Shown: piece after piece, positions 16,518-18,217 of the stretch | Layout of the letters: every line of letters starts with the position of its first letter | Numbering within the stretch: position 1 is the first letter of the stretch | Assembly (NCBI GenBank): GCA_951828535.1 | Contig: OX639990.1 | Coordinates: 793,300 to 857,299, forward strand | Direction: 5' to 3' | Source of the DNA: an uncultured Candidatus Entotheonella sp. | GTDB taxonomy: Bacteria > Tectomicrobia > Entotheonellia > Entotheonellales > Entotheonellaceae | Length of the DNA: 64,000 nucleotides | Translations under genes and position numbers: made by a program | Notes under the pieces: model-generated | Databases searched by the model: none | What the model saw: the letters and a program-made list of their open reading frames with translations, nothing else | Told to the model about the DNA's origin: nothing

Positions 16518-17027
16518 TCAGCCGGTCTCACCGGCCCAGGCGTCGATGCTCCAGGCATCATGCCGTCGCACAAACACGGAGGCCAGTATACCCAGCAGAA
16601 TGAGATCACGGATAAGGACGTGCAGGGGCGTCTCACGAATCCCCAGATTCCCGAAGCAGCCGCAGTCTTCTATGGGAATTTGCGCCACCAACACCACGAC
16701 CATGAGCAAACTGAAGCTGACCAGCTGGGCGCCGATTAGCCACGCCGCGGGCGTGGTCAGGAAACCGATGCATAAGGCCGTGCCGGAAGCAAGTTCGAGC
16801 CACGGCAACCCGGCAGCAATCGGAGAGACAAGAAAGTCGGGGATCACCTGATACTGTTTCACCAGCGCCATCACCTCGCCGTGGGGCAAAACGATCTTGC
16901 TGATTCCCGAGACCACGAACAGTCCGCCGACAAGCACCCGTGCCGCCACAGCCACCCATGGCGCTGCTCTGACACGCTGTCCTAACGCCTGCAGAGGCGA
17001 CCGTTCATTGCGCTTCCCGTCGTGCAC
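16518..17027 (-). CDS. MauE/DoxX-like redox-associated membrane protein
   Basis: This protein of about 169 residues has four probable transmembrane helices. It resembles the MauE/DoxX group: LVGGLFVVSGISKI in helix 1, LPWLELASGTALCIG in helix 2, and a CGCFG motif near residue 122 after IEDC. MauE-type proteins help form disulfides in periplasmic enzymes. It overlaps the end of the DsbA-like gene, and I start it at GTG 17027 in that overlap since no ATG is available before the first helix. The pairing suggests it re-oxidizes or reduces the DsbA-like partner, much as DsbB or VKOR would. Confidence 0.75.
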   Translation of the reverse strand: MHDGKRNERSPLQALGQRVRAAPWVAVAARVLVGGLFVVSGISKIVLPHGEVMALVKQYQVIPDFLVSPIAAGLPWLELASGTALCIGFLTTPAAWLIGAQLVSFSLLMVVVLVAQIPIEDCGCFGNLGIRETPLHVLIRDLILLGILASVFVRRHDAWSIDAWAGETG

Positions 17028-17709
17028 GGTCCAGCTCCTGTCGGATGGTACGAACGAAGTCCCCTTCCCGTTGCGCCCCAACGATGCGCTTGTCGTTGAT
17101 AAAGACGGTGGGGGTACTGCGCACGCCAAGGCTACGGCCGTACGCCTTGTCGGCATTGATCAGTTTTTCCATGCGGCCGCTTTTCACGCAACTGGCGAGG
17201 GCGGTGGTATCAATCCCGAGAGTCTCGGCGAATTCCTGAAGGCGTTGGCGGGGGTTGGGCAAACGGCGCCACCGTTCCTGGCGGGCATAAAGCATGCGGT
17301 GAAATTCCCAGAATTGTCCCTGCTCGCCCGCACAAAGAGCGGCCTGCGTGGCGACCCTGCTGGTGTCATTCAGGGCGAAGGGATACAACACCAACTGCAC
17401 GTCGCCCTCAAACCGGGCAAGCACGCGCTCCATCGTCTCCTGGAGCGCCCTGCAATGGGGTCACGTGTAGTCGCTGAATTCCTTCATCACGACAGGGGAG
17501 CCGGGCACACCCTTACTGTAATGATTATCCAAGGCGCCCTGAAGGCGAAGCGGCAGATTCCGCTGTTGCCAGGAGCGAATTGCCACGCCGGCAGCCAGGA
17601 CAAGAATCACAATGACACCGCCCAAAATAAGCTTCTGGCGCCGCTTGGCGGATGGATTGGCGTTGGACCGCCGGGACTTCGACCCGCGCGGTGTCGGTTT
17701 CTTGGCCAT
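17005..17709 (-). CDS. DsbA-family thiol oxidoreductase, candidate selenoprotein (in-frame TGA = Sec)
   Basis: One frame runs from ATG 17709 to 17005 with a single internal TGA at 17463-17461. Before the TGA is a Lys/Arg-rich N-terminus, a membrane anchor (about residues 28-44) and a strand ending FSDYT. After it come PHCRALQETMERV, a DsbA helical insert and the cis-Pro segment RSTPTVFINDKRIVGA. The TGA thus falls exactly on the first Cys of the family's CPHC active site, giving UPHC. A SECIS-like hairpin follows. Length with Sec is about 234 residues, normal for membrane-tethered DsbA-like proteins. The alternative is a TGC or TGT to TGA mutation or sequencing error; the hairpin argues against it. 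It overlaps a MauE-like gene, its likely partner. Confidence 0.8.
17425..17448 (-). promoter_or_regulatory. SECIS-like hairpin downstream of the in-frame TGA
   Basis: On the coding strand an eight-base perfect stem (GCGCTCCA with TGGAGCGC) closes an eight-base loop GGAGACGA. The loop opens with GG and begins 20 bases after the TGA. This fits the published bacterial SECIS pattern (a G among the first two loop bases, 16-37 bases from UGA to the loop). It would bind SelB to insert selenocysteine. Confidence 0.7.
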
Positions 17710-17896: not shown

Positions 17897-18217
17897 ATGG
17901 ACGTCAGGCACGTGACAAGTTGCAAGGCTTTCAACACTGAGAAGATGAACAAGGTCAATCTCTTTGAGACCGACCGTATGTTCTGCGATCTCTATTGTTT
18001 TGAACCCGGGCAGCAGCAAAAGGTGCACACACACGCTGGCTCCGACAAGGTTTACTACGTTCTTGAGGGTTGCGGCACGTTCCATATTGGCGGCGAAAGC
18101 GAAGAACTGCGGGCGAGCAGCACGGTCATGGCGCCTTCGGGGGTCGGGCACGGGGTCACCAACACAAGCAACGAGCGATTGGTGTTGCTGGTGTACATGG
18201 CGCCGAAGCCGAGATAA
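17897..18217 (+). CDS. Small cupin-domain protein
   Basis: This 106-residue single-domain cupin has the two conserved motifs: HTHAGSDKVYYVLEGCG (metal-binding His pair and Glu-like region) and PSGVGHGVTN (last His). Such small cupins bind a metal and act as isomerases, dioxygenases or sensors; the substrate cannot be told. It is cytoplasmic. AGGTG lies seven bases before the ATG. The next gene starts 12 bp downstream on the same strand, so they are probably cotranscribed. Confidence 0.8.
   Translation: MDVRHVTSCKAFNTEKMNKVNLFETDRMFCDLYCFEPGQQQKVHTHAGSDKVYYVLEGCGTFHIGGESEELRASSTVMAPSGVGHGVTNTSNERLVLLVYMAPKPR

Follow-up and report, generated by a model that had tools for sequence, protein, structure and literature searches.

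Selenoproteins of the DsbA-like type, in which selenocysteine (Sec) replaces the first Cys of the CxxC active site, were first reported in 2005 from the Sargasso Sea, with nine sequences (PMC1088965). The GOS ocean survey named the UxxC form 'DsbA 1' (PMC2398784), and a family table from 2026 lists it as DsbA-like selenoprotein form 1 (PF01323, UxxC) (PMC13188914). The NCBIfam family NF041057 (Rcas_1661 thioredoxin-like (seleno)lipoprotein, 'DsbG-like', UxxC) likewise has a thioredoxin-like domain, in which Sec is optional. Among the DsbA-fold oxidoreductases, BdbD of Bacillus subtilis works with BdbC, a DsbB-type partner, and in the methylamine utilisation (mau) system, MauE is encoded beside the thioredoxin-fold thiol oxidoreductase MauD.

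We analysed a window of 64,000 nucleotides from an uncultured Candidatus Entotheonella sp. (contig OX639990.1, positions 793,300 to 857,299 of the forward strand), in which an earlier note had proposed a gene for a DsbA-like selenoprotein. Positions given here are those of the window; genomes carry G numbers, G000 being the window's own, and loci carry L numbers. The features of the locus are as follows.

17005..17709, minus strand: DsbA-like (Thioredoxin_4) candidate selenoprotein gene, 234 amino acids with Sec at position 83, assigned by Pfam, fold and alignment
17461..17463, minus strand: in-frame TGA, candidate Sec codon, first residue of UPHC, conserved in G001-G004, G091, G089, G077 and G096
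17425..17448, minus strand: candidate bacterial SECIS hairpin GCGCUCCA-GGAGACGA-UGGAGCGC, from folding, covariation and a published model
17005..17007, minus strand: terminating TGA of the DsbA-like gene, TAA in the 89%-identical orthologue
16518..17027, minus strand: gene of a MauE/DoxX-family membrane protein (PF07291, CGCFG motif), the proposed redox partner

As had been claimed, the minus-strand frame 17709-17005 is continuous and open apart from one codon: translation gave 234 residues, and TGA 17463-17461, in the context FSDYT-U-PHCR, is the sole internal stop. The read-through product matched PF13462 Thioredoxin_4 (E 1.4e-26; 94.1 bits versus a curated cut-off of 23.2) and PF01323 DSBA (E 1.5e-21; 77.5 versus 25.6 bits), and the two Pfam matches jointly span residues 67-222. 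In the alignment with homologues, which the earlier note had named as a check, the TGC/TGT genes have Cys at the TGA column, in agreement with its placing of the TGA at the first Cys of CxxC. Its description of the part past the TGA as normal DsbA-like sequence, cis-Pro included, was borne out by the Pfam matches and by the cis-Pro region RSTPTVF, which is kept, with T199 and P200 invariant. The protein has a basic N-terminal tail, one predicted transmembrane (TM) helix and a thioredoxin-fold domain. In the structure model, the N-terminal helix covers residues 19-51 and the DsbA-type domain is confident (pLDDT mostly >90); the best PDB neighbours were DsbA/TsdA, BdbD, ScsC and alpha-DsbA. Judged from sequence and model, the protein is a member of the DsbA-like group (PF01323/PF13462), with a predicted thioredoxin fold that carries UxxC and the cis-Pro. 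Divergent from its gene lies a small cupin-like ORF (17897-18217, plus strand), judged by translation alone.

Compared by description only, the protein is like DsbA-like selenoprotein form 1 in its DSBA/thioredoxin fold, in the predicted Sec for the first Cys of CxxC, in a bacterial SECIS shortly downstream and in its widespread Cys homologues, but it is TM anchored, belongs to the Entotheonella phylum and is paired with MauE. NF041057 was the best NCBIfam match (E 1.9e-32, residues 63-223), but the equivalog cut-off was missed (112.8 versus 190 bits), and the window protein has a TM anchor and, as far as can be read from its sequence, no lipobox. BdbD and the DsbA/TsdA of Corynebacterium diphtheriae, DsbA-fold oxidoreductases that are among the nearest solved structures by both sequence and fold, have Cys in the active site where the window protein would have Sec, and whereas BdbD has BdbC, the neighbour here is MauE. 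As in the MauD-MauE system, a MauE-family gene stands next to a thioredoxin-fold gene, but the thioredoxin-fold partner in the window is DsbA-like and would contain Sec. The neighbouring stretch that was read showed no genes for methylamine dehydrogenase.

Having a single TGA is unremarkable alone in this GC-rich window, since it was found in 24 of 205 TAA/TAG-free runs of at least 200 codons. Likewise, about 40 UxxC/CxxU-like TGA sites were found in the window by pattern; a redox-homologous frame is known for 17463-17461 only, and the frames of the remaining sites look non-coding by eye. However, the TGA of the DsbA-like gene is well beyond chance because it is kept in the orthologues of 5/5 phylum genomes examined, the window's own included, and in remoter homologues. 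The orthologues in G001, a genome of the window's genus, and in G002 to G004 are 89, 60, 56 and 41% identical, respectively, and TGA was also found at the equivalent codon in homologues of the distant lineages G091, G089, G077 and G096. A scan of genome contigs gave OY282375.1 (Candidatus Entotheonella sp.) as the closest orthologue, the other matches being distant relatives, and a search of the phylum of G091 found no additional member. TGC or TGT stands instead in paralogues of Entotheonella-type genomes and in the copies of several other genomes; one such Cys paralogue, L078, is located elsewhere in the window's genome.

If the TGA that interrupts the frame were a nonsense mutation in a decaying pseudogene, the product would end after 82 residues or would not be made at all, and L078 could do the work. 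However, past the TGA, G000 and G001 differ by 46 base changes, of which 28 fall on third codon positions, and the codon differences comprise 25 synonymous and 15 non-synonymous ones; therefore, constraint continues downstream of the TGA. Moreover, all five phylum members have TGA at the same place, even at 41% identity, the downstream part is conserved, a covarying hairpin follows and the linkage to the downstream MauE gene is retained. Decay is thus very improbable, and the view of the earlier note that this is not a decayed gene stands. A sequencing or assembly error, by which TGC or TGT was misread as TGA, would require only one base, and the window's genome is a single assembly, but the same codon recurs in other assemblies, from different genera and from distant lineages, and the Cys relatives are without the hairpin. 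The chance of such an error, which the earlier note had named as a possible refutation, is negligible. Both explanations were rejected on the basis of the conservation of the TGA across species.

The hairpin at 17448-17425 has a stem of 8 bp and a loop of 8 nt beginning with GG, with -14.8 kcal/mol; it starts 12 nt past the TGA, and the GG of the loop is 20 nt past it. It agrees with all four constraints of the published bSECIS model, that is, a stem of 4-16 bp, a loop of 3-9 nt with G in the first two loop positions, a spacing of 16-37 nt and an MFE at or below -7.5 (PMC13188914). When eight TGA genes were aligned without gaps, the fixed helix was paired in 92.2% of the cells, and three helix pairs were changed on both sides, with seven both-sides-changed (compensatory) cells. 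None of 500 shuffles came up to the real alignment in pairing, covariation score or number of such cells. This set leaves out the TGA genes L031 and L070-L072, whose stems are placed differently. Because defining the helix on the window's own sequence biases the count in its favour, eight Cys (TGC/TGT) genes were used as a control, and here the same columns were paired in 46.9% of the cells, which is the shuffle level. Folding z-scores, calculated against a null in which the protein was kept and synonymous codons were drawn from the gene, were -0.9 to -4.1 in 12 TGA genes versus -1.6 to +0.7 in eight Cys genes. The two outermost pairs of the stem do not form in G089 and form only in part in G091 and G077. 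A predicted hairpin of the SECIS type is present in the TGA genes and absent from their TGC/TGT homologues.

The check for Sec machinery in the same genome, as proposed in the earlier note, found all of selA, selB, selC and selD. In the window's genome (one contig, 3.62 Mb), SelB was above the curated cut-off, selA is immediately upstream of selB in locus L001, a single tRNA-Sec (selC) scored 73.9 bits and has the anticodon TCA, and selD/SelD is present. Over the window itself, ARAGORN found no tRNA, selC being elsewhere in the genome, and an Rfam search gave nothing above the gathering thresholds. SelB was also above the cut-off in seven of the eight other genomes with TGA genes, and tRNA-Sec was found in 9/9 when the window's own is counted; for comparison, SelB was found in 7/14 genomes with other DsbA-like relatives. 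The exception is G077, an assembly of about 80 contigs, in which neither SelA nor SelB was above the cut-off, despite TGA genes and tRNA-Sec; this is perhaps due to an assembly gap or to divergent factors. G077 would also fit a recoding of UGA without Sec, by a near-cognate suppressor or by a code in which UGA means Trp or Gly. However, TGA is found exactly at catalytic Cys columns and not at Trp or Gly columns, and the Sec machinery is complete in the window's genome. Moreover, the DsbA-like gene itself ends in TGA; TGA 17007-17005 is a genuine stop because the 89%-identical orthologue has TAA there, and therefore, only the first TGA (17463-17461) would be recoded. A recoding without Sec is, thus, highly unlikely.

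The stretch 17005-17709 on the minus strand is almost certainly a functional selenoprotein gene, with Sec for UGA 17463-17461. This interpretation had been put forward in the earlier note and is supported by the Sec machinery, the Cys column, the conservation of the TGA and the covarying hairpin. The hairpin directly downstream of the UGA would recruit SelB with Sec-tRNA(Sec), and we infer that the ribosome would insert Sec at the first position of the UPHC active site, where it would act as the nucleophile. The single N-terminal helix would hold the product in the inner membrane with the DsbA/BdbD-like thioredoxin domain outside, and this domain would exchange selenenylsulfide/dithiol electrons with client proteins.

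Of the 10 AhpC-TSA family genes of the window's genome, 5 likewise carry a single TGA where the active-site Cys would be encoded.

L120, L121, L122, L125 and L126, window's genome, outside the window: AhpC-TSA family genes with TGA at the active-site Cys

Two are of the peroxiredoxin type (FTGGU and FTGVU), one is Prx-like (AWUPYC) and two are TlpA-like (ATWUGNC and ATWUGIC). All five are probable further selenoproteins, so that this genome probably has several selenoprotein genes, the window gene among them. As a side observation, several UPxC TGA genes (L030, L071, L072 and L080) were seen in the distant genome G077. L072 (G077:C20) is a short thioredoxin-like gene with a membrane anchor; its TGA stands in U-P-N-C, and its N-terminus resembles the MAKKP tail of the window protein.

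The MauE gene probably starts with GTG at 17027, preceded by AGGAG, and overlaps the selenoprotein gene by 23 nt; it scored 77.0 bits with PF07291, versus a Pfam gathering cut-off of 27 bits. A MauE gene overlaps or closely follows the 3' end of the TGA gene in all five genomes of the phylum (G000-G004) and in two from distant lineages (G091 and G077), seven in total, and the CGCFG motif is invariant among these neighbours. In G039, a Cys-type Thioredoxin_4 gene adjoins MauE as an independent pair, and a search for VKOR in nine genomes found none. Because of the conserved neighbourhood, the invariant CGCFG, the Cys pair of G039 and the lack of VKOR hits, we propose MauE as the membrane electron partner: from gene order, it is probably the redox partner of Sec-DsbA. 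The four-helix MauE, with the invariant cysteines of CGCFG, would reset the active site as the electron partner, and we infer that the two proteins would form a membrane-anchored selenothiol/disulfide exchange pair. MauE genes (L107 in G039 and L101 in G087) were seen beside other thioredoxin-fold or rhodanese-like genes, which have the Cys form, and the linkage of MauE with redox proteins may be general.

When the MauE model was compared with solved structures, NACHO/TMEM35A gave Z 12.2 (rmsd 3.1, 120 aligned), GGCX gave Z about 6-7 and VKOR-like gave Z 5.4, which is inside the helical-bundle background. The model thus resembles NACHO/TMEM35A and GGCX and not DsbB, bearing in mind that helical bundles match broadly, and a role of MauE that is specifically DsbB/VKOR-like is proposed with low confidence. 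The DsbA-like protein could also be a selenoprotein without MauE as its redox partner, if the two genes are merely co-transcribed or if MauE has a different envelope function. In favour of this explanation, MauE/DoxX proteins have been little characterised, no redox homologue stood out from the helical-bundle background in the fold search, and no MauE gene follows the TGA homologues of G089 and G096; on the other hand, the overlapping or adjacent order kept in the seven genomes, the invariant CGC motif and the independent Cys-type pair in G039 speak against it. We regard it as a serious, albeit lesser, possibility. The preferred reading is that MauE is the redox partner. More tentatively, Sec-DsbA and MauE might make up an envelope redox couple of their own, with MauE, quinone-linked or otherwise, in place of DsbB/VKOR as the membrane electron partner; such a couple might exist in bacteria of the Entotheonella type and in other uncultured ones.

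Since UxxC DsbA-like selenoproteins were already reported in 2005, the selenoprotein itself adds a member to a known type. In the literature on selenoproteins that was searched, there was no mention of MauE and no link of MauE to DsbA-type selenoproteins; the pairing of Sec-DsbA with MauE is the part that we did not find described there, and it is a fresh lead. The data indicate that selenocysteine is used by relatives of Entotheonella, a sponge symbiont with a rich chemistry, and apparently in several of their redox enzymes; these would be truncated if TGA were read solely as a stop. The functions of this class of selenoproteins are largely uncharacterised (PMC13188914), and the conserved MauE neighbour provides a testable partner for the DsbA-like selenoproteins.
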